Positions 31,735 through 64,000 of a DNA stretch of 64,000 nucleotides are shown here, piece by piece. Every line of letters starts with the position of its first letter. Positions within the stretch are counted from its first letter, which is position 1. The notes under the pieces were generated by a model. It worked only from the letters and a program-made list of their open reading frames with translations. It was not told the origin of the DNA and searched no databases. The translations under genes were made by a program, and so were the position numbers. This DNA comes from Liolophura sinensis (taxonomy: Eukaryota; Mollusca; Polyplacophora; Chitonida; Chitonidae): positions 23,102,955 through 23,166,954 of the forward strand of contig NC_088305.1 of NCBI RefSeq assembly GCF_032854445.1, written 5' to 3'.

Positions 31735-32520
31735 TGTAACCCGCTGCTAGTTCAAATAACTAATTTCAAATAACTAACCCGCTGCTGGTTTATTCGAATA
31801 AATGATTTTGAATAACTACACCGTTGCTGGGTTAGATACTGATTATTTGAATAACTAGCCCGTTGCTTATGAGGTACTAGTTATTCAAATAACTGAGTTG
31901 AAATAACTAATCAGCAGCAAATTTGTTATTTGTTATTCGATTACCTAACTCACTGCTTGTTAGTTATTAGTTTATCGAATAACTAACCCGCTGCTGGTTA
32001 GTTATTAGTCATTCAAATAACTAACCCGGCGCTGGTTAGTTATTAGTTATTCAAATAACTCACCAGGTGCTGGTTTAGTTATTGGTTATTCGAATAACTA
32101 ACCCCCTGCTGGTTAGTTATTAGTTATTCAAATAACTAACCAGGTGCTGGTTTAGTTATTGATTATTCGAATAACTAACCCGCTGCTGGTTAGTTATTAG
32201 TTATTCAAATAACTAACCCATTGCTTGTTAGTTACTAGTTATTCAAATAACTGAGTTGAAATAACTAATCAGCAGCAAATTTGTTATTTGTTATTCGATT
32301 ACCTAACTCACTGCTTGTTAGTTATTGGTTATTCGAATAACTAACCCGGTGCTGGTTAGTTATTAGTTATTCAAATAACTAACCAGGTGCTGGTTTAGTT
32401 ACTGGTTATTCGAATAACTAACCCGCTGCTGGTTAGTTATTAGTTATTCCAATAACTAACCCGTTGCTGAGTTAGTTATTAGTTATTCGAATAATTAATA
32501 ACTAATAACTAACCTGCTGC
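31735..32520. repeat. 38-39-bp palindromic minisatellite, about 20 units
   Basis: Units of the type AACCCGCTGCTGGTTAGTTA plus TTAGTTATTCRAATAACT. Many units contain the perfect 20-base palindrome TTAGTTATTCGAATAACTAA, so the array can fold into a series of hairpins or cruciforms. It ends about 40 bases before the glycosyltransferase-like gene and replaces the unrelated spacer found in block A. Confidence 0.9.
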
Positions 32521-36871: not shown

Positions 36872-37005
36872 TTAATTAATATCCTCCTGAGCCACTAAAG
36901 AGTATTTTGTCCTCGGAGATTTCCTTGTACACTTGATGGCTATGATGACAAAGAGTACTGTTATGATCACGAAACCTCCAACAAGTATCCCAAACATTAG
37001 CAGAC
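36872..37005 (-). CDS. ACP2: Acid phosphatase exon 11 (membrane anchor and tail)
   Basis: Acceptor GTTGCAG|GTCTGC, then [20 protein letters not shown] (membrane helix), the basic stop-transfer [14 protein letters not shown] and stop TAA at 36874-36872. Confidence 0.93.
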
Positions 37006-40000
37006 CTGCAACAAACCACATCAGAAACACACAATGAGCACCGGTATAGGTTATCCCAAACATCAGCAGACCTGCAACAAACCACATCAGAAACACACAA
37101 TGAGCACCGGTATAGGTTATCCCAAACATCAGCAGACCTGCAACAAATCACATCAGAAACACACAATGAGCACCGGTATAGGTTATCCCAAACATCAGCA
37201 GACCTGCAACAAACCACATCAGAAACACACAATAAGCGCTGGTATAGGTTATCCCAAACATCAGCAGACCTGCTACAAACCACATCAGAAACACACAATT
37301 AGTACCACCATAGGTTATCCTAAACATCAGCAGACCTGCAACAAACCACATCAGAAACACACAATGAGCACCGGTATAGGTTATCCCAAACATCAGCAGA
37401 CCTGCAACAAACCACATCAGAAACACACAATGAGCACCGGTATAGGTTATCCCAAACATCAGCAGACCTGAAACAACCACATCAAAGACACACACTGAGC
37501 ATACAAAACATCGGTAGACCTGAAACAAACCACATCAAAGACACACAATGAGTACAGGTAGAGGTCATCAAAAACAACATCAGACCTGAAATAACCACAT
37601 CAAAAATACTCCCTGAGTATCTCAAATATCAGCAAACCTGAAACAAACCAAATCATAAACAATCCATAAACACAGGTTATCCCAAACATCAGCAGATCTG
37701 TACTCCACACAAGGGAAATACTCACTAAAATGATGGATGACTGCATCTGCGTCCTCTACACCACACAAGGGAAATACTCAGTAAACTGAAGGATGACTGT
37801 AGCTGCATCCTCTACACCACACAAGGGAAATTCTTACTAAACTGAAGGTGACCGCAGCTGCGTCCTATACACCACACAAGGGAAATACTCACTGAACTGA
37901 AGGATGACCACAGCTGCGTCCTATACACCACACAAGGGAAATACTCACTAAACTGAAGGATGACTGCAGCTGCATCCTCTACACCACACAAGGGAAATAC
38001 TCACTAAACTGAAGGATGACTGCAGCTGTGTCCTCTACACCACACAAGGGAAATACTCACTAACCTGAAGGATGACCACAGCTGCATCTTGTACACCACA
38101 CAAGGGAAATACTCACTAAACTGAAGGATGACTGCAGCTGCATCCTCTACACCAAACAAGGGAAATACTCACTGAACTGAAGGATGACCACAGCTGCGTC
38201 CTATACACCACACAAGGGAAATACTCACTAAACTGAAGGATGACTGCAGCTGCATCTTGTACACCACACTCTTTCGCCCAGTTGTCAGGTATCACATTGG
38301 ATGTCAGCTGCACAAACTTCTCAAAGGGACACTTTTCTGAACAGCCTGAAATAAAATGTTGCTTTTTATTCCTGTGTTGTTTGTTTATTATTTCAGTAGA
38401 AAATGCAAAGTTAATGAATAATTTTTTGAGTCCATGCTATAACAAGTGTCATCAACAATTGGGTGTACAGGCTGTGAAAAGTCCAACAGCTCACAAAAAT
38501 GGGCAATGGGAAATACATTCATCAGTAACCTTAACATGGTCCAACAGCTCACAAAAATGGGCAATGGGAAATACATTCATCAGTAACCTTAACATGGTTA
38601 ACCTCTACATGTATGTCAAATAATTTATTTATTTATTTGGTTGGTGTTTTACGCCGTACTCAAGAATATTTCACTTATACGATGGCAGTCAGCATCATGG
38701 TGGGCGGAAACCGGGCAGGGCCCGGGGGAAACCCGAGACCATCCGCAAGATGCTGGCAGACCTTCCCACGTACGGCCGGAGAGGAAGCCACCATGAGCTG
38801 GACTTGAACTCACTGCGACCGCATTGGTGAGAGACTCCTGGGTCATTACGCTGCGCTAGCGCGCTAACCAACTGAGCCACGAGGCCCCTGTATGTCAAAT
38901 AAGGTAATCTGAAGTCAAATCCTCACTTACGAATTCCAGTTATACAGACCCAGAGGCAACACTGTCCTCTGTCCTACTTGTATTTGTCAAGGGACAGGTA
39001 AAAAATCATTGACAGAAAAATTGACAAAAATTTTCTGAATCGGTATCTTGATCCCAAAAGCGAATGGACTGGTGTTTTATAAACTCTTATCAGGCCAAGG
39101 TCAACATGTGAACAAAATTTCTTAGAAATCCCCCAATAAGTTGCTAACAGATGCACTGATAGCCAGAAATATAAATAAACACCAACAAAAACGTAGCCAA
39201 AAAATCATATGAAAAAAATCGTATGAAAAAAGAAAGCTTGGTATCACCGACAGTAACTGGCTTTTAGTATAATCAAAATGGGACTACTTTCACATAGATT
39301 CATACATTGTACACCATTCTTTGGAACTATTCTTATAAATCTCCGTAGCTTCACCTAGTGAATAACCCATTTTTTTTAAGAGCACACTTATTTTATTTTA
39401 CCAGAACAATGGCAAAATAAAATGCTAAAATATTTTATATTATAAACTTACCTGGTACTGTTAAAAGCATTGGCTGAGAACCATTGTTGTAAAACACTTT
39501 GACGTAGTACGTATTGGCCGGATCTTCATGAAGCTCCAGAATCACTGAGGCAGCATATGGTGGGCTGATATCATTAAACACACCCAGGGCACTCAGCAAG
39601 GCAGCTACTGTTGTGTCATGCTAGATGGAAACAGTACATGTACAGTACACTTATTCACCATTACAGGGAAAGACGTCAACACATTTCATTGGACCTTGTG
39701 ATTCTAAAAGTCACTTAGAATGATTTACTTAATTTTCCAAAGCTTGACAGAGGACTGGCAGAGCCAAAAGGAAACCTGGCAGAGCCAAGAGGAAACCTGA
39801 CAGAGCCAAGAAGTAATCAGAGTGCATGGAGGAACCTCACAGGACATAAACGAAACATACACAGAGCATAGAGGAAAAATGATCGAGCATAGAGAAAACA
39901 TGATACAGTCTAGAAGACACCTGGTAGAGTACAGAGTGAAAATGACAGTATAGAGGAAACTTCAGGGCCTGAAGGAACCTTCACAGAACATAAAAGAAAC

Positions 40001-43000
40001 ATACACTGAGAATAGAGGAAACCTGACACAGACTAGAAGAATCATGACAAAACATACTCTGCTTGAGTATAGAGGAAATCTTGTTGAGTACAGAAGAAAC
40101 CTGGTTGAACATAGAGTAAACCTGATACAGCCTAGAGGAAACCTGGAAGAGCATAGAGGAAAACTGACATAGTATAGAGGAAACATGCTTACAGCAAACC
40201 TGGTAAAGTATAGAGGAAACCAGAAACAGCGAAGGGAAATCCTGCCATAGGCCTAGAGGAAAAGGCTCGGAGTAAAAACCTGAAATAATCTATAAAGGAA
40301 ACATGACACGGTCCACAAAAAAAAACCAGAGTAACTCAGTTGTGGATGAAATTTGGGATTAAATACAGTAATTCAAAATAAAATACAGTAATTGCAAAAC
40401 ACATTTTCCATTTGTTCTACAGCTGTAAGCTGTTAAATGATTCCACTGACTTACTGCTGAATACATATACATTCTGGCTCTCTCGGCATCTAACGTCCCA
40501 TTTATTCTATTGATCTTGTTGTTCATATTTTCCAGCATTACTTTTAAAAGTGGGCCTGTAAATAAGAAAAAAAGGTCAATTTTGTGAATAGTTTGCATTG
40601 TTGGTTCACCCTTAAATTTATTTATTTCTGTAAAGTTTCAATTCAATAAGCAAATTATAATGAAGTTGTAGCAGAGTGTTATTGTACGTCACAGATTTAC
40701 TTTACATGTAGAACACTTGTGGTTATAGACTTTAGTGTAGGTCTGCTTACATGTAGGTCTGCTTTGAGCCACTGTAGCAGAGTGCTGTTGTAAGTCACAC
40801 TGTTAGTTCCATGTCATACTTGTAGCAGACTTTTGACGATATACATACATGTACACACACAGAACTACTCAGGTCTGCTTTCAGCCACTGTAGCAGAGCG
40901 CTGTTGTATGATACACTTTTAGTTCCATGTCATACATGCAGCAGACTTGTGGTTATATGTAGCAGACTTTTGATGATATACATACATGTACACACACACA
41001 ACTACTCAAGTCTGCTTTCAGCCACTGTAGCACAGTGCTGTTGTATGGTACACTTTTAGTTCCACGTCATACATGCAGCAGACTTGTGATTATATGTAGC
41101 AGACTTTTGATGATATACATACATGTACACACACAGAACTACTCAGGTCTGCTTTCAGCCACTGTAGCACAGTGCTGTTGTATGGTACACTTTTAGTTCC
41201 ACGTCATACATGCAGCAGACTTGTGGTTATATGTAGCAGACTTTTGATGATATACATACATGTACACACACAGAACTACTCAGGTCTGCTTTCAGCCACT
41301 GTAGCACAGTGCTGTTGTATGGTACACTTTTAGTTCCACGTCATACATGCAGCAGACTTGTGGTTATATGTAGCAGACTTTTGATGATATACATACATGT
41401 ACACACACAGAACTACTCAGGTCTGCTTTTAGCAATTTGATTGGTGTCTTGGCAAGAACATTTCACTGCAGCCTGCATTATGGTGGGAAGACACCAGGCA
41501 GAACACGGGAGAAACCCATGATGCATAACCATCCTCATTGTGCCATGGTCATGGAGGACCCCGCATACTCACTGTTACATGTGACACATTTGTGTTTATA
41601 GATGTACATTTACTTGTGTGTACCAGATTTTTGTTGATATCCACACACAGAGCTACCCACCTCCTTTGAGCCTCTGAAGGAGAGTAGTGTTGTACATGAG
41701 GGTGAAGGAGAAAGACTCCAGGGTTCTCAGCTTGTTGATGATAGAGCTGTTCACCCAGGAGGGAAGTGAGAAGTTGTGACGACTCTAAAACCAAAAACAA
41801 CAATACTAAAGACATCTACATAAAAAAACCAAAATTAAATATTAAAATTCTGCATTTACAAATACTTGCTTTGTGTCAATGCAATATTCAAAAATATTTC
41901 ATCATTTACCCTCAACTTTGCCAACAAAAGTAAACCTTTAGAAAGGACTTACATTTAGTAGCACAGCTGACAGACACATGCTTGCAAAACTTCAGCTCAT
42001 ACATAAAGCACTAAAATCTAGAATTTGGTAATTTACAGTAAGTAATATGTACACAGAGCATCATCGTTGAAACAACCTGCTTGTGTCATTATGCTTTATA
42101 TGCATGTGAAACTTCAGAAATGTAGTAATTTACAGTATTTAATATGTACACACCACATCAACAATGGAATATCCCCCTCGTGCTATTGTGCTCTGCACAT
42201 GTGCAAACTCTGAGCTCAATACATGCAGTACTTTTTGAGATACCAACCCCAACACTGAGTATAATAAACAATACACTAAAGTCAGGAATTCAGTAATTTA
42301 CGGTATTTAATATGTACACACCATATCAACAATGGAATATCTCCCTTGTGCGATGGCGCTCTGCACATGTGCAAACTCTGAGCTCAATACATGCAGTACT
42401 TTTTGGGATACCAACTCCCAACACTGAGTCTAATACACAATACACTAAAGTCAGGAATTCAGTAATTTACGGTATTTAATATGTACACACCATATCAACA
42501 ATGGAATATTCCTCTCGTGCTATTGTGTTTTACATGTGTTCAAACCTTGATATGAACACCTGGAGTACTTTCTAAGATACAACCCCTAACATTTTGTTCC
42601 ACATGTTTTCCCTGTTATTGGACACAGGAGTTCATTGTATGACCTAAGCTATGCCTATACTTTGTAAAGGTGAGCTAAAAAAAAATGCGTCATTTTCCCA
42701 GTATCTCAGAACCAGACATGCACAGGTGTATCATGAAACTTTATGTTTATACCCAAAAAATCATCTCATAGTAGAGTGTGTCAATCACTTATCACATGTA
42801 ACAGACATTACCAACAAACTCACCTCACAGTAGAGTGTATCAGCTACTGGTCATATGTTAAAGACATTGCCAACAAACTCACCTCACAGTAGAGTGTATC
42901 AGCCACTGGTCATATGTTAAAGACATTGCCAACAAACTCACCTCACAGTAGAGTGTATCAGCCACTGGTCATATGTTAGAGACATTGCCAACAAACTCAC

Positions 43001-46000
43001 CTCACAGTAGAGTGTATCAGCCACTGGCCATATGTTAGAGACATTACCAACAAACTCACCTCACAGTAGAGTGTATCAGCTACTCGCCATATGTTAAAGA
43101 CATTGCCAACAAACTCACCTCACAGTAGAATGTATCAGCCACTGGTCATATGTTAAAAACATTGCCAACAAACTCACCTCACAGTAGAGTGTATCAGCCA
43201 CTGGTCACATGTTAGAGACATTGCCAACAAACTCACCTCACAGTAGAGTGTATCAGCCACTGGCCATATGTTAAAGACATTGCCAACAAACTCACCTCAC
43301 AGTAGAGTGTATCAGCCACTGGTCATATGTTAAAGACATTGTCAACAAACTCACCTCACAGTAGAGTGTATCAGCCACTGGTCATATGTTAGAGACATTG
43401 CCAACAAACTCACCTCACAGTAGAGTGTATCAGCCACTGGCCAAATGTTAGAGATATTTTCATGACCTAACCCTGTCTTCTCTCCAACAAAAATGTAGAA
43501 ATCCTGAAGACAGTAAAAGATTCTATTATCTGTTATGGTGAATGCCTGTGAACCCTTCAGTAGAATGAATGAACGAATGCTTGGAGTTTAATGTAGTGCT
43601 TAACAATTTTTCAGCCATATGACGATGAGGAGTCATTAAGTGTGTGTACATACATGTACATACATATTGTGTTTTCTTGCGGCAGGACGAGTCCATGCTG
43701 CCAAAGTGCTGCTGCCACTGAAGTACATGTATCATGCGGAAGACACCAGATATGACACCTTACCCAATAACCAGTCACCAGTCATCTTTCCTTACTCCAA
43801 CTTCACAGTGTTGAGCGCTAAGCGAGGCAGTAACAAGTACCATTTTTAAACTCTTTGATCTGACCCGACCCAGTTTTGATCCTGAGTCCCACGACTTCAA
43901 GGCGGGTGCTCTATCCATTAGGCAATTGAAGCGGTCCCCTTATACAGAGTGAGTGCTGAGGGTTTAACGTTGTACTTAACAATTTTTCAGTCACATGGCA
44001 ACAAAGGAGACCTTAGAGTGCATGTAATGTGCCTCCTTGTTGCAGGGTCCGATTTCCACTGCTCTTTTATCTAGTGCTGCTTCACTGAGATGATTTACCA
44101 AAGGCAAGCAAGCCGCCCCACCTGAGCCATTTTACTGATACGGGTCAACCAGTCTTTGCACTATCCCCTTAACACTGAAGGTCAAGCGAGGAAGCTACAA
44201 CTTCATCTTTTAAGGTCTTAGGTGTGACCCAATCAAGGGCTGACCCTGGATCTACCGTCCAACGCTCTACCAATTGAGCTATCGCGGCCAGTCTCTTAAG
44301 CTGAACAACATAGACAATCTACATGTCCACTGTGTAATGCCTGTATAATGAGACTACTTTTTTCACTCATTACTGTTACTGGTGATTTAACACAGGTCTT
44401 AAGAGCGTTTCACTTTGTAAAGTGATTATACAGGAGATAGCTTCAGCAGAAAATCCATCAGTGCAAATCCATTCCAATTTTTGCTATTAATTTAACAAGC
44501 ACCCCAATAATTACTTTTTACAAAATACCAGCCTCTTCTATGCACATATTACTGTTCAAAATTGTTAATTAAGTTCTTAAATAACATCTTCAAAGTTTTG
44601 AATCATTTTCACACTGTAATATCTAGTACAGGTATTAATATTTACTGCAAAGCAATATTTTGAGCTATTCTTGGTACATACACACGTCACTGGTCTAAAG
44701 CCTATCAGCTGCTGCGAGATACAGCAATACTAATAAATACCCTTTTAAATACTAATAAAGAATTCGTTGAGTGTCCAAACTTTATCTTCTCAAAATATTA
44801 AATTTTCAGGTTAGGGATTAAAAGGACTATTTGATGTCAATCCGTGATCACATTTGATAAAGCCATGATAATTATTTCAAATACATACAAACAAATACGC
44901 ATGTATCATTCATTCAGATAATAATTCAACCCGATTAGTCCTCAAAACACAAAGAATACCTCCAAATATTCAGGTGTATTCACTTGTCCTAATGAATACA
45001 TGTATATCCCTACAGAGGTAAACTGATATACCAAAATTCTTCTACCTGTGTGCAAGTTGCAACGGGTTTATTCCAGCCTATTCTGAAGACAATATTCTGT
45101 GTTGACTGATAAAATTGTACCTCTTGTGAATCTCTGAAGCTGACCTATCCAACCAATGCAGTTTTGTCTCCAGTCCAAAATCTAATTAAAATATGCATAA
45201 ACTGCCCTGAAAGTTGCTCTTTAATATGTGATAGGTCAAGGAATTAGAGTAGAGGTTGTAAATGCAGGCATCTGCATAAGGATTTCATATAAGTCATAAA
45301 ACACTTGTAGTTGTTGTGTGCTTGTAAACACAAGTTATTAATTTTATAGGTTTATAAATTATATAGGCAAATTATTACTAACCTTTTCATTACAAATTTT
45401 GGGATCAGTTCCAAAGGAAAATTTTGCAAGTCACAATACTGCAATATTATTAACACTGCAACAGTTACATGTATATATGCATTACACACTTTTTGTGATT
45501 GGCAAGATTTATCACTTTAAAAATTTTATTTGCTTCTGAAAGTACATTTTTTTTACAAACCAAACTATATGTGTAAAACAATAATTGAATAACTTAATAT
45601 CAGTAGACCTTCCACAAACTGCATGTTGATATGTGACATGCCAAAATGGTATTATATGATCCTACATTGATTTACTCTGAAGTTATCCCTGTAACTGTAC
45701 ATCAAGGGGCATAACTCTACAAATTATCATTTTAAAACTTGGATAGATCACTTCTAGAATTGACAACCATTATTTTCTCTATCAGACAATTTTATTTGAA
45801 TTTGTAATAAGGGATTTGATGTTGATTTTGATAACAAAACACCAACCTTATTACGTTTTTCTTCCTCCTTAACAATGTCAGAATGTAAAATGTCATCATA
45901 GGCTTTGTCATAAGCTGGGCAAGGAGCTTGGAGAGCTAGCACCTAAAACAAACAGGAAATTAAACAATGGATAATTACACTGGTATTACATGGGCAATTA

Positions 46001-49000
46001 TAGTTTAAAATAATCATACCTATATAATTACGACACATTACACACATTACTGCCAGCTTTAGATATCTTACAAAGATCTACATGTACATGGTACATGTTC
46101 CATACATCAGAATGTCACGAATGGCTTTTTTTGGTGCAGGACACAGGGCTTCACGCTGTGCTCAAGAATATTTCACTTATATGACGGTGGTCAGCATTAT
46201 GGTGGAGGAAACCCATGACCTTCATAAGAGGGATAGCTCTAAGAACACGCTGTATCTCGGACATTACAAAAAATTATTGCAATAATTATTTGACATATCA
46301 AAAAAATGTAATCATTTGACATCAATCGTAACTATCAACTTGCATATACATTGTAGTCTTTCGTTGCCTACTACATTTATCAAGTGGAAAAAGATTAATA
46401 ATGGTTTTACCACATGTATAAAAAAATATTTACATGTTAGTAACAAGTTAGCTCATTTTTCTAATTTTTTTTTTAAAGATATATTAGAGAGTGGCCTCAG
46501 GGATACGGAGAATATTTAGAGAATATTTATTCAAGAATTTCCATGTGAAAGTCTGATTTAATGGTCAAAGTAAATGATACAGATTAAATTTTGTTGAATA
46601 ACTTCCCAATACCAGAATATTTCAAAAGAAAAACTGTAAAAAAAGATGTACCTTTTTTAAAAGTAATTATTGTGTAGGGAAGTGTAGGGAATGCTCCAAA
46701 CAATAAACTTCTTATTTTACGGTAAATTACCTAAATTTTGGCCAATGACAATCTGCCTGATTGTGTGAGTTCTATTGATCTTACAAAGATGTTTTAAAGT
46801 TTGTTTGGAAGGTTTGATGGAGAAATATAATATTCAGTCCCAGAAGAAACACTTTATGCCATAACGTGTACCTGTACCTAAAAAATGACATATCTAAAAA
46901 TGTAATTTTGGGGGCAAAATTTTAGGTTATTTAATGTATGCCTGAAGTACTGTTACATATGTAAGCTGATGCCAAAACTTACACTGTCATTTTTCTCCGG
47001 AACTGTATGAATAGGAACGGGCTGCCAGGTAACATTAGGTAGGAATGTATCAGTGGGTGGGTACAGTCCTGCAAGGTGGCACTCAGCACTGAGAAGACAC
47101 CGATCCAGGTTAGAGCTACGGACTGATATCTGAAACAGGTGACACAGTTGATGATAGGGAGAAAAGTATCACAGTCCTGCGTCACGGCGGAGACACCTGC
47201 CCAGAATAGAGGTGTGTCCTGATATCTGAAACAGGTGACACAGTTGTACAGCAAAGAATGGTATTACAGTCCTGCTTCTCTCTTTTCCCTTTTATGAGAT
47301 TATATATCAGGTGGGCATAATAAAATGGGCCGTCCTTTGACATTCAATATTTCAGAAACCATCTTATTTCAAGTTCTAAAAATTTACACACTTAAAAGCC
47401 TTTACGTCCTAAATATATAGACCAAATTTCAATTTCATCCTTTCAGATTTCTGTTCATGGGACCAAAGTCAAAAATGCATGTTGCAGACATTTGAAAATA
47501 ATGTTCTACCTTGTTTTACTTGAAAAGGTGATCAATTCCTTGTCCGCCGCAGAGAAAACCATCTTGATTCAGCAAAACTTGTGCCTACCTGGCAGAAAGG
47601 TTTCTCTAACACTAGAGTCAGACAATTTTTTTCACACAACACCTCACTGACGTGTGTCACACAGGAGCAGCCCGCGCTCTACTCATGACACCTGACAGGT
47701 GATGCAATGTGGGTCACCAGACCATGCGATTTTGAGGCTATGTTTTCATTTTAACTCTGTGCGCAAACTACTCAAGTTATGATCTAGAAAATTGGTCAGC
47801 ATATTAACAAGATCATGCCATTTGAATGTCTAAAGTTTGAAAGGGTTTAAACAAAGGATAATGGAGCAATGCAGCATCAAAGTACGACCCATTATATATA
47901 TGATGTCACAGAAAAATTCTGCTCACGTCTCCTGTTGAAAAGGTTAAGGACAATATCAAGTTAGGAAACAGGTTAAATTTGACAAGATTTCACCAATCTC
48001 TACATGTATTACGATTAAGACATTATTTCAGCTATCACTGTTAGCCTATTACAATTCAGAAATCATTTTCATGCCTACTGCTAGCATGTTACAACCATGA
48101 CATTATTTTAACACTCACTGTTTTATAGCCTACACGTACATGTAAATCAACACAGAGAAAGCTCACTTTTATTTTTATTTATTTGATTGGTGTTTTATGC
48201 CATACTCAAGAATATTTCACTTATACGACGGCGGCCAGCATTATGGTGCGAGGAAACTGGGCAGAGCCCGGTGGAAACCCACGACTATTTGCAGGTTGCT
48301 GACAGACCTTCCCATGTATGGGAAAACTCACTTTTAAACTATTAGCCTTTTACAACTCAAGACATCATTTCAAAACTCACCTGGAATCTGTCATAGGAAG
48401 CATTAAGAAAAGTTTTGTAATATTCTCTGTAGAATTGACCAAGTTGGTAATGTTCCCTCATCCCCTCCTGCAAAATAAAAGGAGCATGCTGATCATTTAT
48501 TTGATTGGTTTTTTACGCTGTACTCAAGAATATTTCACTTATACGACGGCGGTCAGCATTATGGTGGGTGGAAATCAGGCAGAGCCCGGGGGAAACCCAC
48601 GACCATCCGCAGATTGCTGACATGCCCGATCATTGTAATACCAGTACATTAACACATGGAACTGCTGCCATTTGGAATAAATACACATTCAGGTTTCAAT
48701 GTAAGAGCCAAGAATAAAAAATTAAAAACAAAAACAAACTTATATCATACACAATGAATAGGAGAATATCAGAGCAGACTTCACAAATGTGTTTTATTGT
48801 GTTGTAATAAAATACACATTCAAGATTAAAATTAAAACTTTATGGACAGCAAAACAATAAAAAAATCAAAAACAAAAGTATACTTCAGTTTTTACAATGC
48901 AATTGACAGTGAAATAGTTTGAACTTTATGTCACAGTTGTATACAATGTATGGTACAAAAATCTGAGTAGATTTGACAAATGTGATTTGATATGTAGTAC

Positions 49001-51270
49001 ATGTACCTTGGTCAGTTGGCCATATCCCTGAGGCCAGTCATTCTCTGTGATCGGATTGGTTGGATAACTTTCCACAGGGCTTCTGTCTCCATGACGATAA
49101 AGCTATATTAAAGGCACAGTGCATGTTAAGTGAGTTAAAATATTAAAGCTTCTTGATGAAACAGGAAAAAAACAAAACATCTAATAATGCAAAGACCATT
49201 TTATTACCCATTGCAAGCTATGAATTTCATGGTTGGTGTTATCAGTGCAGGAATCCAGAGTGCCAAAAGGTAAACCAATGACCCTCAGCAACTTACTGAC
49301 AAACTTTCCAACTTCTAGGACTTGTTTACATGCTTTTACGTCATATTCATTATACTGGTGAAAGACAAGTTCTATTGATTTAAGACAGACTACATGAAAG
49401 CTTCCTGAAATCTCACTGTCCTCTTCCATGCCTTCTCGTAAATGCTGAATGCAGAAAAATCTACAAATTCTCTAAATTAAAGGTTGGGGTTGAACCAGCA
49501 ATTTAAGACAGACTGCATGAAAGCTTCCTGAAATCTCACTGTCCTCTTCCATGCCTTCTCGTAAATACAGAATGCAGAAAAATCTACAAATTCTCTAAAT
49601 TAAAGGTTGGGGTTGAACCAGCAATTTAAGACAGACTACATGAAAGCTTCCTGAAATCTCACTGTCCTCTTCCATGCCTTCTCGTAAATACAGAATGCAG
49701 AAAAATCTACAAATTCTCTAAATTAAAGGCCGGGTTTGAACCAGCAATTTAAGACAGACTACATGAAAGCTTCCTGAAATCTCACTGTCCTCTTCCATGC
49801 CTTCTCGTAAATACAGAATGCAGAAAAATCTACAAATTCTCTAAATTAAAGGCCGGGTTTGAACCAGCAATTTAAGACAGACTACATGAAAGCTTCCTGA
49901 AATCTCACTGCCCTCTTCCATGCCTTCTCGTAAATACAGAATGCAGAAAAATCTACAAATTCTCTAAATTAAAGGCCGGAATTGAACCAGCAATTTAAGA
50001 CAGACTACATGAAAGCTATCTGAAATCTCACTGCCCTCTTCCATGCCTTCTCGTAAATACAGAATGCAGAAAAATCTACAAATTCTCTAAATTAAAGGCC
50101 GGGTTTGAACCAGCAATTTAAGACAGACTACATGAAAGCTTCCTGAAATCTCACTGCCCTCTTCCATGCCTTCTCGTAAATACAGAATGCAGAAAAATCT
50201 ACAAATTCTCTAAATTAAAGGCTGGGATTGAACCAGTGTTTTTAAGACAGACTACATGAAAGCTTCCTGAAATCTCACTGTCCTCTTCCATGCCTTCTCG
50301 TAAATACAGAATGCAGAAAAATCTACAAATTCTCTAAATTAAAGGCTGGGATTGAACCAGTGTTTTTAAGACAGACTACATGAAAGCTTCCTGAAATCTC
50401 ACTGTCCTCTTCCATGCCTTCTCGTAAATGCTGAATGCAGAAAAATCTACAAATTCTCTAAATTAAAGGTCGGAATTGAACCAGCACCTTGTGTGCCTTA
50501 ATACTCAGTACTGCACATCCTGATCCATTATTTGTAATGCAGAAACATTTCCACAAATATGCCAACTAGGCTTAAGTTATCCATTTATACTAAATTATCC
50601 CTTAAAGGATAGGAATATGAAGAATAGGAGCCCTAAAACAATGATTATGGTTTAAAGGGGAATAAAGAAAATTATTCCCCCAAAACACTGAAAATTTTTG
50701 TAGCCGTTTTCATATTCCCTCTTTTTTATGCAGACTTTCCATCAAAAGACAGAAATTTGGAAAAAATGACATCTTTAAATCATCATGCCTGGAATGCATA
50801 ACCAGCTTAACATTCCCAATTCCGATTTTTTCCCCCAGAGAGAGGGGCGTCGTTTTGACAGGTACTACCATTAGCTTCACCTATGCAGGCTACTTAATTC
50901 CCACTCGGGCCTCTTCATTTTCAGCATCCTCTCCATTTTAGCCAGCCAGATCATTTTACACACCATGTTCATTTAATGCAGCAGGATAATTTTGAGCCCT
51001 AGCTCTCTTCATTTTTATGTAATATGCAACCAGATCACTTTGGTCACTGTCTTCATTTAAAATGCAGCTTGATCATTTTGGGTACACTTTTTATTTTAGA
51101 CACCCTGTTGATTTTGGACACACTCGTTGTTTGGGAAACTGTAGTCATTTAGGATGAAATGGTAATTTGGGTCATCCTGGTGGTTTTAAAAGTTGATGTC
51201 ATTTTTCTTCTGCACATACTAAGAAATACAAACAAATGTTTGATGTGCCTTTCAAACAGGGAGGATGTGT

Positions 51271-51301
<31 letters not shown>

Positions 51302-52439
51302 GGGAGAGGGGGTGTTAATGAACAGAGGGAAGAGAAGAGCCCTCAATCCCCAGGACATGCTGACCTCATAACCTTAGCATACATTCAGGTGCTTGTGCCT
51401 CTCTTCTGGGATATAACTTTTTAGATAAATACACATGTTCTTTAGACTGTAGTGAGTGAGTGCTTGGGGTTTAACGTCGTACTTAACAATTTTTCAGTCA
51501 TATGACGACGACTTCAGACTGTACGTAACAAATAAATTGCACGAAGCATGCTAATTTGTAATTCAGTGTGCTAAATAACCTTCCTTATTTAACATTCTGA
51601 CATTTATATAATTATGTTGTCCGTGTCTACCTACTGAATGAGTGTCAGAAATATAAAATATGAAAGTTGTAGGCCTACATATAATGTTATTGAATTAATT
51701 AGTTTGTACAGCTGTAAGTCTTGCCATCTGTCTGTTCAAAAATATTTTATGTGTTACCAGCAAATGGGGCTCTATATACAGCACAGGATGAACATATAAA
51801 TAAACCAGCACTGTAGCTGTCTCTGTCAGCTGGTCACGCCTCTAACAGCTATAGATCCCAAAACCGCAATTTCTCACTACAACATAAACTTGGGAAAAAA
51901 AGAGAGGTTTAATATGAAAACTATTCACCTATAAGTTGAATTTGTCTTATGTGACCCCTAGACCTAGCCTTTAGTGTGTTATTTTAAAATTCTCTGTCAT
52001 ACGTTGTACCGGGATATTAAAAATTAATCGACGAAGAATGTCGATGGATTTAATGGGGCTAAATTTGACCTTGTGCTCACCTGAACTATGCAGTATTCAG
52101 ATACGGTATTTCGTAAGTGTCAAGTTTTTCAGCAGAAAAGTGTGCGGTACATGTTTTCGGCTGTTGCACTTAATAGTACTAGCGAGAGTAGGTCTACTAT
52201 TATTGTACCAGTCTGTAGTCAGTTTCAGTTTCACGTCACATGCGTCTATCGAACACCAAATATTTCGAAAAAATGACACTCAGACTCGGTATATAAATAA
52301 AGTTTTCATTCAGAACACTGAAGAGTCTTACCAGGTTGACTAATCGCAGAGATGGAAGGTCCTGTGAGGCACAAACACCGATGAAATATAGAATCGTCAA
52401 TAAAAACATCGCCGCCGGGTAATTCGCGGCTACCGCCAT
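36872..52439 (-). CDS. ACP2: Histidine acid phosphatase, lysosomal/prostatic type, 11 exons, complete
   Basis: Exons: 52439-52332, 49102-49007, 48467-48381, 47129-46983, 45942-45847, 43503-43414, 41784-41661, 40555-40455, 39620-39452, 38345-38229, 37005-36872. All introns are GT-AG, phases agree, and the sum is 1,269 bases (422 residues plus stop), close to vertebrate ACP2 (about 423). In order: a signal peptide (residues about 10-25, [16 protein letters not shown]), [15 protein letters not shown] with the catalytic His of RHGxRx[50 protein letters not shown], the HDTTVAAL motif with the proton-donor Asp, a Cys-rich GCSEKCPF segment, one membrane helix ([19 protein letters not shown]) and a short tail with YSLV, a tyrosine-type lysosomal sorting motif. 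About nine N-x-S/T sites fit a lumenal glycoprotein. It hydrolyses phosphomonoesters at acid pH. Orthology to ACP2 rather than ACPP is inferred from the membrane tail. Confidence 0.95.
37006..37500 (-). repeat. 66-bp array copied from the exon 11 acceptor junction
   Basis: About seven to eight units; each ends TGTGGTTTGTTGCAG and continues with GTCTGCTGATGTTTGGGATA, the first 20 bases of exon 11, plus 46 intron bases. It decays towards 37700. 66 bases is 22 codons and the exon frame stays open across the two units nearest the exon. Confidence 0.9.
37720..38228 (-). repeat. 56-bp array copied from the exon 10 donor junction
   Basis: About nine units, each with the last 40 bases of exon 10 (GCAGCTGCAGTCATCCTTCA...TTTA) followed by GTGAGTATTTCCCTTG. 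Period measured between CTGAAGGATGA at 38177 and 38233. Confidence 0.9.
38229..38345 (-). CDS. ACP2: Acid phosphatase exon 10
   Basis: [20 protein letters not shown] and [18 protein letters not shown], phase 1 donor TTTA|GTGAGT. Its last 40 bases plus 16 intron bases form the 56-bp array unit downstream. Confidence 0.92.
38482..38598. repeat. 58-bp direct duplication in intron 9
   Basis: GTCCAACAGCTCACAAAAAT through CCTTAACATG occurs twice in direct succession. Confidence 0.85.
38624..38888 (-). mobile_element. tRNA-derived SINE in acid phosphatase intron 9
   Basis: Full length, same family, with target duplication TGTATGTCAAATAA at 38610-38623 and 38889-38902. Confidence 0.93.
39452..39620 (-). 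CDS. ACP2: Acid phosphatase exon 9 (catalytic HD)
   Basis: [20 protein letters not shown] carries the second catalytic motif (HD); [15 protein letters not shown] and [10 protein letters not shown] follow. Acceptor ATCTAG|CATGAC, donor CCAG|GTAAGT. Confidence 0.95.
39745..40320. repeat. Degenerate short tandem repeat in intron 8
   Basis: Variants of AGAGGAAACCTGRCAGAGCA recur every 20-35 bases throughout; too diverged to fix a period. Confidence 0.6.
40455..40555 (-). CDS. ACP2: Acid phosphatase exon 8
   Basis: [20 protein letters not shown]... ending YMYSA, acceptor TTTACAG|GCCCAC, donor AGCA|GTAAGT. Confidence 0.93.
40700..41430 (-). repeat. 137-bp array in intron 7, related to the exon 7 donor junction
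   Basis: CACTTTTAGTTCC occurs at 40914, 41051, 41188 and 41325, a strict 137-base period, about five copies. On the minus strand each unit contains CTCTGCTACAGTGGCTGAAA and GTAGTTCTGTGTGTG, matching the end of exon 7 (CTCTCCTTCAGAGGCTCAAA) and the following intron start (GTAGCTCTGTGTGTG). The GT donor itself is lost in the units. Confidence 0.8.
41432..41565 (-). mobile_element. Degenerate SINE fragment in intron 7
   Basis: TTTGATTGGTGTCTTGGCAA, TGCATTATGGTGGGAAGACA and GGGAGAAACCCATGA match the SINE tail with gaps. Confidence 0.65.
41661..41784 (-). CDS. ACP2: Acid phosphatase exon 7
   Basis: 41 codons plus one base, [20 protein letters not shown] to LLQRLKG, donor GGAG|GTGGGT. A decayed copy of this donor region is the unit of the 137-bp array in the next intron. 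Confidence 0.93.
42040..42540. repeat. About 170-bp tandem repeat in intron 6, three copies
   Basis: TTTAATATGTACACACC plus ATCAACAATGGAATAT recur at about 42137, 42303 and 42473. No resemblance to an exon seen. Confidence 0.8.
42780..43413 (-). repeat. 59-bp array copied from the exon 6 donor junction
   Basis: About 11 units. On the minus strand each reads CAGTGGCTGATACACTCTAC TGTGAG|GTGAGT plus TTGTTGGCAATGTC, that is 41 exon bases and 18 intron bases. Nearly all units keep an intact GTGAGT donor. Confidence 0.93.
43414..43503 (-). CDS. ACP2: Acid phosphatase exon 6
   Basis: 30 codons, [20 protein letters not shown] then [10 protein letters not shown]. Donor TGTGAG|GTGAGT. The last 41 bases plus the first 18 intron bases form the unit of the 59-bp array at 42780-43413. 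Confidence 0.93.
43548..43855 (-). mobile_element. Second SINE-like family copy in intron 5
   Basis: GAGTTTAATGTAGTGCTTAA, CAATTTTTCAGCCATATGAC, then GGCAGGACGAGTCCATGCTG and AGACACCAGATATGACACC, shared with 43945-44292 and with 6770-7105. Confidence 0.65.
43945..44292 (-). mobile_element. Second SINE-like family copy with tRNA-like head
   Basis: GGGTTTAACGTTGTACTTAA and CAATTTTTCAGTCACATGGC at the left. On the minus strand the right end starts CTGGCCGCGATAGCTCAATT with GGTAGAGCGTTGGACGGTAG, a tRNA-like head with an A box (TAGCTCAATTGG). Confidence 0.75.
45847..45942 (-). CDS. ACP2: Acid phosphatase exon 5
   Basis: 32 codons, [20 protein letters not shown]..., phase 0-0, acceptor GTTTTAG|GTGCTAG, donor ATAAG|GTTGGT. 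Confidence 0.92.
46128..46225 (-). mobile_element. Degenerate SINE fragment in intron 4
   Basis: GTGCTCAAGAATATTTCACT, TATGACGGTGGTCAGCATTA and GGAGGAAACCCATGACC only. Confidence 0.7.
46983..47129 (-). CDS. ACP2: Acid phosphatase exon 4
   Basis: 49 codons, [20 protein letters not shown] through [15 protein letters not shown]; the Arg of VRSS is a conserved phosphate-binding residue in the family. Its acceptor region and first bases are duplicated at about 47130-47225. Confidence 0.93.
47130..47225 (-). repeat. 96-bp duplication of the exon 4 acceptor junction
   Basis: CTGTGTCACCTGTTTCAG|ATATCAG occurs at the real exon 4 start (47129) and again 96 bases upstream (exon-like start 47225). The duplicate continues with an eroded copy of the first part of exon 4 (CTATTCTGGGCAGGTGTCTC against CTAACCTGGATCGGTGTCTT). 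Read in the exon frame the extra unit hits TGA after 18 codons. Confidence 0.85.
48172..48326 (-). mobile_element. 5'-truncated SINE in intron 3
   Basis: Tail and central region only, flanked by CTCACTTTTA at 48162-48171 and 48327-48336, so the truncation occurred at insertion. Confidence 0.88.
48381..48467 (-). CDS. ACP2: Acid phosphatase exon 3
   Basis: 29 codons, [20 protein letters not shown] and an NAS glycosylation site. Acceptor TTTTGCAG|GAGGGG, donor CCAG|GTGAGT. Confidence 0.93.
48498..48627 (-). mobile_element. 5'-truncated SINE in intron 2
   Basis: Tail and central region only, flanked by GATCATT at 48491-48497 and 48628-48634. Confidence 0.82.
49007..49102 (-). CDS. ACP2: Acid phosphatase exon 2 (catalytic RHGDRSP)
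   Basis: 32 codons, phase 0-0. Carries the active-site His in [17 protein letters not shown] and [10 protein letters not shown]. Acceptor ATATAG|CTTTAT, donor CAAG|GTACAT. Confidence 0.95.
49297..49444 (-). other. Candidate cryptic or foreign exon in intron 1
   Basis: Acceptor TGCATTCAG|CATTTACG and donor GTCA|GTAAGT bound 148 bases with an open frame ([43 protein letters not shown]). It does not belong to the acid phosphatase fold, and its length would shift the frame between exons 1 and 2. It could be an exon of a nested gene or a captured fragment. Unrecognised. Confidence 0.4.
49382..50490 (-). repeat. 123-bp array in intron 1, nine units
   Basis: AAGACAGACTACATGAAAGC recurs at 49382, 49505, 49628 and 49751 and onward, a strict 123-base period. 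Each unit contains about 67 bases of the candidate exon start plus upstream intron. Only the first and last units keep the TTCAG acceptor; the middle ones read TTCTG. Internal units are almost identical to each other. Confidence 0.92.
50491..52331. other. Rest of intron 1, no gene seen
   Basis: Holds a (GT)n(G)n tract at 51267-51304 and a SINE-like fragment at 51447-51520 (TGGGGTTTAACGTCGTACTT). Open frames here are repeat-driven. Confidence 0.5.
52332..52439 (-). CDS. ACP2: Acid phosphatase exon 1 (signal peptide)
   Basis: 36 codons, [20 protein letters not shown]..., ending LRLVNL at donor CCTG|GTAAGA. The start ATG sits in CCAAGATGGCGG, both a good initiation context and a YY1-like element. 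Confidence 0.93.
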
Positions 52440-54145: not shown

Positions 54146-54230
54146 TGTTGAAGACAACTTCAGACGTGACGGCACGAATGACACTACTAGTGCGATCTAT
54201 CGATTATTGCCACCAGGTCCTCGAGGACAG
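54146..54230 (+). repeat. Left flank copy of the 50-bp satellite
   Basis: GAAGACAACTTCAGACGTG, then GCGATCTATCGATTATTGCC, matched at 60484-60550 on the other side of the array. Confidence 0.85.
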
Positions 54231-57200
54231 AGGAATCATGGGAATATGGAGAATTTCCGCCACAAAGTCCTCGAGGACACAGGTATCATGGGAATATGGA
54301 GAATTACCGCCACCAAGTCCTCGAGGACACAGGTATCATGGGAATATGGAGAATTACCGCCACCAAGTCCTGGAGGACACAGGTATCATGGGAATATGGA
54401 GAATTACCGCCACCAAGTCCTCGAGGACACAGGTATCATGGGAATATGGAGAATTACCGCCACCAAGTCCTCGAGGACACACGAATCATGGAAATATGGA
54501 GAATTACCGCCACCAAGTCCTCGAGGACACAGGTATCATGGGAATATGGAGAATTACCGCCACCAAGTCCTCGAGGACACAGGTATCATGGGAATATGGA
54601 GAATTACCGCCACCAAGTCCTGGAGGACACAGGAATCATGGAAATATGGAGAATTACCGCCAACAAGTCCTCGAGGACACAGGTATCATGGGAATATGAA
54701 GAATTTCCGCCACCAAGTCCTCGAGGACACAGGAATCATGGAAATATGGAGAATTTCCGTCACCAAGTCCTCGAGGACACAGGTATCATGGGAATATGGA
54801 GAATTACCGCCACCAAGTCCTGGAGGACACAGGAATCATGGAAATATGGAGAATTACCGCCACCAAGTCCTGGAGGACACAGGAATCATGGAAATATGGA
54901 GAATTTCCGTCACCAAGTCCTCGAGGACACAGGTATCATGGGAATATGGAGAATTACCGCCACCAAGTCCTGGAGGACACAGGAATCATGGGAATATGGA
55001 GAATTACCGCCACCAAGTCCTCGAGGACACAGGTATCATGGGAATATGGAGAATTACCGCCACCAAGTCCTCGAGGACACAGGTATCATGGGAATATGGA
55101 GAATTACCGCCACCAAGTCCTGGAGGACACAGGAATCATGGAAATATGGAGAATTACCGCCACCAAGTCCTGAAGGACACAGGAATCATGGGAATATGGA
55201 GAATTACCGTCACCAAGTCCTCGAGGACACAGGAATCATGGGAATATGGAGAATTACCGCCACCAAGTCCTGGAGGACACAGGAATCATGGAAATATGGA
55301 GAATTACCGCCACCAAGTCCCCGAGGACACAGGTATCATGGGAATATGGAGAATTACCACCACCAAGTCCTCGAGGACACAGGTATCATGGGAGTATGGA
55401 GAATTACCGCCACCAAGTCCTCGAGGACACAGGTATCATGGGAATATGGAGAATTACCACCACCAAGTCCTGGAGGACACAGGTATCATGGGAATATGGA
55501 GAATTACCGCCACCAAGTCCTCGAGGACACAGGTATCATGGGAGTATGGAGAATTACCGCCACCAAGTCCTGGAGGACACAGGTATCATGGGAGTATGGA
55601 GAATTACCGCCACCAAGTCCTGGAGGACACAGAAATCATGGGAATATGGAAAATTACCGCCACTAAGTCCTCGAGGACACAGGAATCATGGAAATATGGA
55701 GAATTTCCGCCACCAAGTCCTCGAGGACACAGGTATCATGGAAATATGGAGAATTACCGCCACCAAGTCCTAGAGGACACAGGTATCATGGGAATATGGA
55801 GAATTACCGCCACCAAGTCCTGGAGGACACAGGAATCATGGAAATATGGAGAATTACCGCCACCAAGTCCTGGAGGACACAGGAATTTTGGGAATATGGA
55901 GAATTACCGCCACCAAGTCCTCGAGGACACAGGTATCATGGGAATATGGAGAATTACCGCCACCAAGTCCTGGAGGACACAGGTATCATGGGAATATGGA
56001 GAATTACCGCCACCAAGTCCTCGAGGACACAGGTATCATGGGAATATGGAGAATTACCACCACCAAGTCCTCGAGGACACAGGTATCATGGGAATATGGA
56101 GAATTACCGCCACCAAGTCCTCGAGGACACAGGAATCATGGGAATATGGAGAATTACCGCCACCAAGTCCTCGAGGACACAGGTATCATGGGAATATGGA
56201 GAATTACCGCCACCAAGTCCTCGAGGACACAGGTATCATGGGAATATGGAGAATTACCGCCACCAAGTCCTCGAGGACACAGGAATCATGGGAATATGGA
56301 GAATTACCGCCACCAAGTCCTCGAGGACACAGGTATCATGGGAATATGGAGGATTGCTGTCATCAAGTCTTCCATAACACAAGAATCATGGGAATATGGA
56401 TGATTGCTGTCACCAAGTCTTCCAGGACACAGGAATCATGGGAATATGGAGGATTACTGTCACCAAGTCTTCCAGAACACAAGAATCATGGGAATATGGA
56501 GGATTGCTGTCACCAAGTCCTCGAGGACACAGGTATCATGGGAATATGGAGAATTACCGCCACCAAGTCCTGGAGGACACAGGAATCATGGAAATATAGA
56601 GAATTACCGCCACCAAGTCCTGGAGGACACAGGAATCATGGAAATATGGAGAATTTCCGTCACCAAGTCCCCGAGGACACAGGTATCATGGGAATATGGA
56701 GAATTACCGCCACCAAGTCCTGGAGGACACAGGAATCATGGGAATATGGAGAATTACCGCCACCAAGTCCTCGAGGACACAGGTATCATGGGAATATGGA
56801 GAATTACCGCCACCAAGTCCTGGAGGACACAGGAATCATGGAAATATGGAGAATTACCGCCACCAAGTCCCCGAGGACACAGGTATCATGGGAATATGGA
56901 GAATTACCACCACCAAGTCCTCGAGGACACAGGTATCATGGGAGTATGGAGAATTACCGCCACCAAGTCCTCGAGGACACAGGTATCATGGGAATATGGA
57001 GAATTACCACCACCAAGTCCTCGAGGACACGGGTATCATGGGAATATGGAGAATTACCGCCACCAAGTCCTCGAGGACACAGGTATCATGGGAGTATGGA
57101 GAATTACCGCCACCAAGTCCTGGAGGACACAGGTATCATGGGAGTATGGAGAATTACCGCCACCAAGTCCTGGAGGACACAGGAATCATGGGAATATGGA

Positions 57201-60200
57201 AAATTACCGCCACTAAGTCCTCGAGGACACAGGAATCATGGAAATATGGAGAATTTCCGCCACCAAGTCCTCGAGGACACAGGTATCATGGAAATATGGA
57301 GAATTACCGCCACCAAGTCCTAGAGGACACAGGTATCATGGGAATATGGAGAATTACCGCCACCAAGTCCTGGAGGACACAGGAATCATGGAAATATGGA
57401 GAATTACCGCCACCAAGTCCTGGAGGACACAGGAATTTTGGGAATATGGAGAATTACCGCCACCAAGTCCTCGAGGACACAGGTATCATGGGAATATGGA
57501 GAATTACCGCCACCAAGTCCTGGAGGACACAGGTATCATGGGAATATGGAGAATTACCGCCACCAAGTCCTCGAGGACACAGGTATCATGGGAATATGGA
57601 GAATTACCACCACCAAGTCCTCGAGGACACAGGTATCATGGGAATATGGAGAATTACCGCCACCAAGTCCTAGAGAAGACAGGAATTTTGGGAATATGGA
57701 GAATTACCGCCACCAAGTCCTCGAGGACACAGGTATCATGGGAATATGGAGAATTACCGCCACCAAGTCCTCGAGGACACAGGTATCATGGGAATATGGA
57801 GAATTACCGCCACCAAGTCCTCGAGGACACAGGAATCATGGGAATATGGAGAATTACCGCCACCAAGTCCTCGAGGACACAGGTATCATGGGAATATGGA
57901 GGATTGCTGTCATCAAGTCTTCCATAACACAAGAATCATGGGAATATGGATGATTGCTGTCACCAAGTCTTCCAGGACACAGGAATCATGGGAATATGGA
58001 GGATTACTGTCACCAAGTCTTCCAGAACACAAGAATCATGGGAATATGGAGGATTGCTGTCACCAAGTCTTCCAGAACACAAGAATCATGGGAATGTAGA
58101 GGATTAATGTCACCAATTCTTCCATAACACAAGAATCATGGGAATATGGAGGATTACTGTCACCAAGTCTTCCATAACACAAGAATCATGGGAATATGGA
58201 GGATTGCTGTCACTAAATCTTCCATAACACAAGAATCATGGGAATGTGGAGGATTGCTGTCACCAAGTCTTCCAGAACACAGGAATCATGGGAATGTAGA
58301 GGATTACTGTCACCAATTCTTCCATAACACAAGAATCATGGGAATATGGAGGATTACTGTCACCAAGTCTTCCATAACACAAGAATCATGGGAATATGGA
58401 GGATTGCTGTCACCAAATTTTCCATAACACACGAATCATGGGAATGTGGAGGATTACTGTCACCAAGTCTTCCATAACACAGGAATTATGGGAATGTGGA
58501 GGATTACTGTCACCAAGTCTTCCATAACACAAGAATCATGGGAATATGGAGGATTGCTGTCACCAAGTCTTCCAGAACACAAGAATCATGGGAATATGGA
58601 GGATTGCTGTCATCAAGTCTTCCATAACACAAGAATCATGGGAATGTGGAGGATTACTGTCACCAAGTCTTCCATAACACAAGAATCATGGGAATATGGA
58701 GGATTGCTGTCACCAAGTCTTCCATAACACAGGAATCATGGGAATGTAGAGGATTACTGTCACCAAGTCTTCCATAACACAAGAATCATGGGAATATGGA
58801 GGATTACTGTCACCAAGTCTTCCATAACACAAGAATCATGGGAATATGGAGGATTACTGTCACCAAGTCTTCCATAACACAAGAATCATGGGAATGTGGA
58901 GGATTACTGTTACCAAGTCTTCCATAACACAGGAATCATGGGAATGTGGAGGATTACTGTCACCAAGTCTTCCATAACACAAGAATCATGGGAATATGGA
59001 GGATTGCTGTCACCAAGTCTTCCATAACACAAGAATCATGGGAATGTGGAGGATTACTGTCACCAAGTCTTCCATAACACAAGAATCATGGGAATATGGA
59101 GGATTGCTGTCACCAAGTCTTCCATAACACAGGAATCATGGGAATGTAGAGGATTACTGTCACCAAGTCTTCCATAACACAAGAATCATGGGAATATGGA
59201 GGATTACTGTCACCAAGTCTTCCATAACATAAGAATCATGGGAATATGGAGGATTACTGTCACCAAGTCTTCCATAACACAGGAATCATGGGAATGTGGA
59301 GGATTACTGTCACCAAGTCTTCCATAACACAGGAATCATGGGAATGTGGAGGATTACTGTCACCAAGTCTTCCATAACACAAGAATCATGGGAATATGGA
59401 GGATTACTGTCACCAAGTCTTCCATAACACAAGAATAATGGGAATGTGGAGGATCACTGTCACCAAGTCTTCCATAACACAGGAATCATGGGAATGTGGA
59501 GGATTACTGTCACCAAGTCTTCCATAACACAAGAATCATGGGAATATGGAGGATTACTGCCACCAAGTCTTCCAGAACACAAGAATCATGGGAATATGGA
59601 GGATTGCTGTCACCAAGTCTTCCATAACACAAGAATCATGGGAATATGGATGATTGCTGTCACCAAGTCTTCCATAACACAAGAATCATGGAAATATGGA
59701 GGATTGCTGTCACCAAGTCTTCCAGAACACAAGAATCATGGGAATGTGGAGGATTGCTGTCACCAAGTCCTTCAGGACACAGGAATCATGGGAATGTGGA
59801 GGATTACTGTCACCAAGCCTTCCATAACACAAGAATCATGGGAACATGGAGGATTACTGTCACCAAGTCTTCCAGAACACAAGAATCATGGGAATATGGA
59901 GGATTGCTGTCACCAAGTCCTTCAGGACACAGGAATCATGGGAATGTGGAGGATTACTGTCACCAAGTCTTCCATAACACAAGAATCATGGGAATATGGA
60001 GGATTGCTGTCACCAAGTCCTTCAGGACACAAGAATCATGGGAATATGGAGGATTACTGTCACCTAGTCTTCCAGAACACAGGAATCATGGGAATATGGA
60101 GGATTACTGCCACCAAGTCTTCCAGAACACAAGAATCATGGGAATATGGAGGATTGCTGTCACCAAGTCCTTCAGGACACAGGATTTATGGGAATATGGA

Positions 60201-60460
60201 GGATTGCTGTCACCAAGTCTTCCAGAACACAGGAATTATGGGAATATGGAGGATTGCTGTCCCCAAGTCTGCCAGAACACAGGAATCATGGGAATCTGGA
60301 GGATTACTGTCACCAAGTCTTCCATAACACAAGAATCATGGGAATATGGAGGATTACTGTCACCAAGTCTCCCAGAACACAAGAATCATGGGAATATGGA
60401 GGATTACTGTCACCGTCTACGAGAACACAGGAATCATGGGAATATGGAGGATTCCAGTGC
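54207..60460 (+). repeat. 50-bp satellite array, about 124 units, two subfamilies
   Basis: Type A (GAATTACCGCCACCAAGTCC, then TCGAGGACACAGGTATCATG and GGAATATGGA) fills 54231-56345 and 56516-57895. Type B (GGATTACTGTCACCAAGTCT, then TCCATAACACAAGAATCATG and GGAATATGGA) fills 56346-56515 and 57896-60420. The unit length is constant at 50. Because 50 is not a multiple of three, translation cycles through all frames every 150 bases, and type A lacks stops in all three plus-strand frames. This is why a 1,038-codon open frame (54207-57323) exists; I treat it as a by-product. Confidence 0.95.
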
Positions 60461-63847: not shown

Positions 63848-64000
63848 CTGCCGAGGGAAAACAGTGGAGGTAAAAAGTTGCTTACAGAAAAAAGTCAGAA
63901 ATATTGGTAGAACAACACCTTAGGCCCTTTGAAAATGTCGAAACCTCGAGCTGCATTGCTATCACGGAAACAAACACTGCATCTAAACATTCGAACACTT

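Follow-up and report, generated by a model that had tools for sequence, protein, structure and literature searches.

Minisatellites copied from five exon-intron junctions of one acid phosphatase gene in the chiton Liolophura sinensis

Introduction

Tandem repeats that run across exon-intron boundaries were found in the globin genes of amphioxus, where they were named mirages and where Adh3 and other loci were cited as further cases (PMC3087553). PGBD5 was added as a mirage locus in another report, which also cited troponin C (PMC3902484), and the Adh paper cited by these two is PMC117041. Among the matches listed for the open-licence literature, mirages go by that name in lancelet genes only, and no title or abstract opening announces a junction minisatellite from a mollusc. 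In abalone a 27-bp intronic minisatellite has been reported, whose overlap with a junction is not stated in the excerpt at hand (PMC6905558). Earthworms, too, have intronic minisatellites, and the corresponding excerpt does not present them as copies of junctions (PMC12783039).

Repeats of a related kind have been connected with splicing and with new introns. A VNTR in intron 18 of human ABCA7 contains the exon 18 donor, and its length goes with skipping of exon 19 (PMC5954066). Intron gain by tandem genomic duplication (AGGT) has been reviewed (PMC3443670), and in human duplicated genes repeats occur at exon-intron boundaries and may form novel introns (PMC2812944).

Here we describe the repeat arrays of an acid phosphatase gene in a window of 64,000 nucleotides from Liolophura sinensis. 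An initial annotation had taken them for something without a described class. That was wrong, since the same structures are the mirages of amphioxus (PMC3087553, PMC3902484). The arrays of the acid phosphatase gene belong to this known class, but a single gene with five of them, and with an intron composed throughout of arrays, is an unusually dense case.

Results and Discussion

The acid phosphatase gene

As shown in Table 1, the window contains a histidine acid phosphatase gene of the lysosomal/prostatic type. Spliced translation of the minus strand gave 11 coding exons, GT-AG introns and a CDS of 1269 nt, with internal stops absent. The closest database match was lysosomal acid phosphatase-like isoform X2 of L. 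sinensis itself (P0001, an NCBI model of 373 aa). In the alignment P0001 equals the window translation, save that its first residue is the second Met and that exon 10 is missing (422 - 10 - 39 = 373). The skipping of exon 10 in isoform X2 is in frame, and exon 10 precedes the intron that holds two arrays (36872-38345).

A PacBio HiFi assembly of L. sinensis has been published with a mean HiFi read of 8.3 kb (PMC11068029); the species name in that paper has since been corrected (PMC12441733). If the window comes from this assembly, collapse or false expansion of the arrays is unlikely, because reads of that length exceed the arrays.

Table 1. Repeat arrays and other features of the acid phosphatase gene (positions in the window)
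Feature	Position	Strand	Evidence
Acid phosphatase gene (histidine acid phosphatase, lysosomal/prostatic type)	36872..52439	-	Spliced translation; P0001 and PF00328 matches
E11 acceptor array, 66-bp units (46 intron + 20 exon nt)	36986..37708	-	TRF, junction register
Intron 10	37006..38228	-	1223/1223 nt inside alignments to its two junction units, at least 75% identity
E10 donor array, 56-bp units (40 exon + 16 intron nt), ~10 copies	37709..38268	-	TRF, junction register
58-bp two-copy repeat, intron 9, no junction	38481..38598	-	TRF only
21-bp array, intron 8, no junction	39755..40263	-	TRF, self-BLAST
Remainder of 137-bp array, intron 7	40755..41433	-	TRF, self-BLAST
E7 donor-spanning unit, junction-proximal copy of 137-bp family	41572..41694	-	Junction search
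168-bp array, intron 6, no junction	42124..42591	-	TRF, self-BLAST
E6 donor array, 59-bp units (41 exon + 18 intron nt)	42747..43454	-	TRF, units in junction register
E4 acceptor duplication, two copies, 95-96 bp	47087..47278	-	Junction search, self-BLAST
123-bp array, intron 1, not junction-derived by these tests	49378..50486	-	TRF, junction search, self-BLAST

Five junctions are spanned by arrays

Each of the 20 junctions was searched singly against its own introns, with shuffles as the null. Fourteen had no match above shuffles, five were spanned by an array, and one, the E3 donor, gave a marginal and purely intronic match (26 vs 24 in shuffles) that was dropped. At the five spanned junctions, three donors and two acceptors, exon and intron sequence both aligned to the units. 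When the units were laid on the junctions, the lengths and the exon and intron shares given by the initial annotation for the E6, E10 and E11 arrays turned out to be exact.

The E4 duplication and the decayed E7 array, both of which had been claimed as well, are also real. The two copies of the E4 acceptor lie at an offset of 95-96 and share 75% identity over 98 nt, with a local score of 63, where shuffles reached at most 22. At the E7 donor a 55-nt match spans the junction with a score of 43 (shuffle maximum 22); with looser scoring it reaches 89 nt into the intron and ~123 nt in total, with a score of 46.5 against a null maximum of 24. The E7 donor site is absent from the array copy aligned to it. 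Self-BLAST placed an interspersed repeat (41453-41521) in the stretch between the proximal unit and the remaining 137-bp units, an arrangement suggesting that this repeat was inserted after the array had formed.

The array in intron 1 had been read as copies of the acceptor of a cryptic exon. This is unsupported: against the array, the scores of the E2 acceptor and of the E1 donor did not exceed those of shuffles. The adjoining ORF had no Pfam match at E 0.01 and P0001 contains no such exon, so the cryptic exon was rejected. The end of the whole feature had also been set too short at 49444, as this array runs to 50486 and the gene to 52439. An interspersed repeat, SINE-like by eye, has several copies in the gene's introns and elsewhere in the window (38623-38891, 48167-48321, 48493-48622).

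The E6 array is made up of the exon copy, 10 intact decoys in register and one decayed end copy. Copies 2 and 9 are identical though they are not adjacent, and copy 11 differs from the other copies at 16-19 of 59 positions, compared with 0-6 among the others. Exon 6 keeps Trp199, which is invariant across six aligned proteins, whereas in 7/10 register copies (counted by eye) a TGA stands at this position in the exon's frame. This identifies the exon as the source of the array, and the array as free of coding constraint.

The whole of intron 10 (1223 bp) is built from copies of its two ends. Reduced to one copy of each unit it would measure ~62 nt. In the donor array, copies 1 and 6 are identical though non-adjacent, as are copies -1 and -6 in the facing acceptor array. 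The latter has eight copies (0 to -7) with the splice site in register, at 36986-37513, the most upstream of which has a degenerate intron part, and decayed copies continue to 37708. In both arrays the far-end copies are decayed. With ~nine donors opposite ~eight acceptors, intron 10 is a dense natural case.

Comparison with mirages and other junction repeats

Like the mirages of amphioxus Adh3, BflGb6, BflGb9, TnC and PGBD5, as the excerpts of PMC3087553 and PMC3902484 present them, the arrays have a tandem unit that spans the exon-intron boundary, here at five junctions, and both donors (E6, E7, E10) and acceptors (E4, E11) are affected. Like mirages, they keep the splice dinucleotide in many, not all, copies: GT in 10/11 E6 decoys, the donor dinucleotide in 7/8 E10 decoys counted (copy 7, which carries a 1-nt deletion, was excluded), and AG in 7/7 E11 register decoys. 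A concerted interior with an excluded end copy is also common to both, being found here in E6, with far-end decay in E10 and E11 too. Regular splicing is reported for the amphioxus genes, whereas here the witness is a database protein in which E4, E6, E7 and E11 are joined at exon-proximal sites and E10 is skipped. Unlike the amphioxus cases, the present arrays occur in a mollusc, at five junctions of a single gene, with one intron composed of two facing arrays, and they are known from the DNA of one haplotype.

Like the ABCA7 VNTR, the arrays carry a splice donor in the repeat unit and extend into the intron (PMC5954066). That unit differs in being 25 bp long, with the donor GT as its first two bases and no exon part mentioned in the excerpt, and the effect on skipping was measured there and not here. 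Like intron gain by AGGT, the process multiplied splice sites by tandem duplication (PMC3443670). In AGGT, however, a duplicated exon segment gives rise to a new intron, whereas the copies described here lie inside introns and need no new one.

Splice sites in the arrays

P0001 joins E3-E4, E6-E7, E7-E8 and E9-E11 at exon-proximal sites, and thus uses the exon-proximal site at four array junctions (E4 acceptor, E6 donor, E7 donor, E11 acceptor). As a database protein model that skips exon 10, it is uninformative on the true E10 donor. The nine bases from -3 to +6 at a donor are the stretch that pairs with U1, and over these bases the decoy donors equal the true donor in 10/10 E6 register copies and in 4/6 of E10. 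If used, an E6 decoy donor would lead to a premature stop in 10/10 register copies, an E10 decoy donor would do so in 6/6 and in a seventh lying one base off register, and the E4 decoy acceptor would also give a stop. Among the seven E11 decoy acceptors, the first two would leave the reading frame open, lengthening the protein by 22 or 44 residues, and the other five would not. These two (-1/-2, 36986-37183) are in frame, and the residues added are mostly hydrophobic and lie ahead of a membrane segment.

The initial annotation held that amplification always went into the intron. This direction needs no mechanism of its own. While splicing keeps to the exon-proximal site, any additional copy counts as intron by definition, and use of a donor decoy gives a stop, so that survival accounts for it.

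Origin of the arrays

We consider it probable that these mirages are ordinary tandem duplications which straddled a junction, were tolerated there and were then multiplied by unequal exchange. Duplications of 56-137 bp would have come from ordinary slippage or repair, five of them happening to straddle a junction. Each would have placed a duplicate splice site of the same quality inside the intron, while the original stayed beside its exon. Exon definition may then favour the exon-proximal site, in which case the mRNA would be unchanged and the allele, presumably neutral, would survive. Copies would be multiplied and homogenised by unequal exchange, and the one farthest from the exon would drop out of the exchange and decay. 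Unequal exchange is indicated by the identical non-adjacent copies together with the decayed far-end copy, as in the globin mirages of amphioxus. The observations from which this account starts are the unit anatomy, the exon-proximal sites of the NCBI model, the homogenised middle and decayed far end of the arrays, and the stops behind donor decoys. Against it, an excess of events in this gene hints that births were possibly non-random.

This excess bears on a second explanation, in which tandem duplications arise preferentially at splice junctions (e.g. through co-transcriptional R-loops, stalled polymerase or replication conflict there) and mirages are over-produced. Families were taken from two mechanical scans, TRF and self-BLAST. 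Nine local families were kept, five of which span a junction, and 5/20 junctions lie inside arrays. Dropped from the count were the interspersed pair 48177/48495, flagged as occurring elsewhere in the window; the pair 43575/43997, unflagged by the filter and by eye like the repeat at 51453-51497; and three intronic TRF rows with units of 14-20 bp (39199-39231, 40361-40399, 45335-45367). As all five dropped rows are non-spanning, the spanning share rose from 5/14 to 5/9. When each family was supposed to be born once at a random position with no exon destroyed, 0.7-1.25 spanning families were expected under six settings, and the probability of five or more was 0.0002-0.0035. TRF families alone gave a weaker result, with 3/8 spanning against 0.85 expected (P = 0.04). 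Arrays cover 36% of the intron bases, and when the junctions were slid along the gene a mean of 6.8/20 fell inside arrays, with five or more in 88% of rotations, a count in which the E7 family takes in 138 non-array nt (41434-41571). An excess, and with it a hint of a mechanism aimed at junctions, is thus seen when birth events are counted and not when coverage is. Since arrays gain their length after they are born, we give preference to the birth-based null.

Recurrence of the same class across several amphioxus genes, as cited in PMC3087553 and PMC3902484, would also fit preferred birth at junctions. However, the junction pattern was noticed before the statistics were made, in one gene only, and at birth-null rates 6-97 of 28,010 genes would be expected to match if each had nine families, a generous assumption. 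Preferred birth at junctions is unlikely in our view. A bolder combination, in which junctions are hotspots of minisatellite birth in chitons (and lancelets), intron 10 grew entirely in this way from ~60 to 1223 nt and array lengths set the skipping of exon 10, seems about as unlikely. Were the hotspot part true, intron growth would proceed partly by the copying of an intron's own ends.

It is quite improbable that the decoys are functional and that the arrays tune splicing, for example the skipping of exon 10, as the length of the ABCA7 VNTR does. The NCBI model does skip exon 10, whose donor and next acceptor are both arrays, and a longer ABCA7 VNTR is tied to more skipping of exon 19 (PMC5954066). 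But most E6 array copies have a stop in their exon-derived part, and the decoy sites show no greater conservation than the other positions of their units. We compared column variability over all rotations of the unit, and the splice window was not less variable than the remainder: 13/59 (E6), 23/56 (E10) and 39/66 (E11) rotations were equal or lower. Variable columns made up 0/16 of the intron-derived and 9/40 of the exon-derived part in E10, a pattern repeated neither in E6 (2/18 vs 7/41) nor in E11 (9/46 vs 1/20). By this measure selection on the decoy sites is unsupported, and we rejected it.

That intron 10 was itself born by a mirage or an AGGT-type tandem duplication is very improbable: its complete alignment to two junction units and its collapsed length would suit such an intron gain, but its donor and acceptor lie in units of different sequence, unlike a simple duplication in which one exon segment supplies both sites, and vertebrate ACP2/ACP3 genes have an intron near the same position, which would make intron 10 old.

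With the acid phosphatase gene, mirages are placed in a mollusc. They make two old questions testable with existing long-read data, namely whether repeats arise more often at junctions than in other intron DNA, and how the spliceosome chooses among ten identical donors.

Other repeats and ORFs of the window

A 50-bp minisatellite of ~125 copies (54209-60453) begins ~1.8 kb upstream of the acid phosphatase start codon. Three arrays (2206-2662, 5499-5692 and 24366-25611) have a similar 78-bp unit in common and perhaps lie within copies of one interspersed element. An array of 38/77-bp units (31925-32498) is rich in palindromic GTTATTCGAATAAC-like motifs. Two ORFs resemble the integrase core (rve; 11144-11374 and 12796-13350), of which one passes the Pfam cut-off and the other falls short of it, and the stretch looks rich in mobile elements. 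On the minus strand, 63586-63894 has a weak laminin G match below the Pfam cut-off and may represent an exon of the neighbouring gene.
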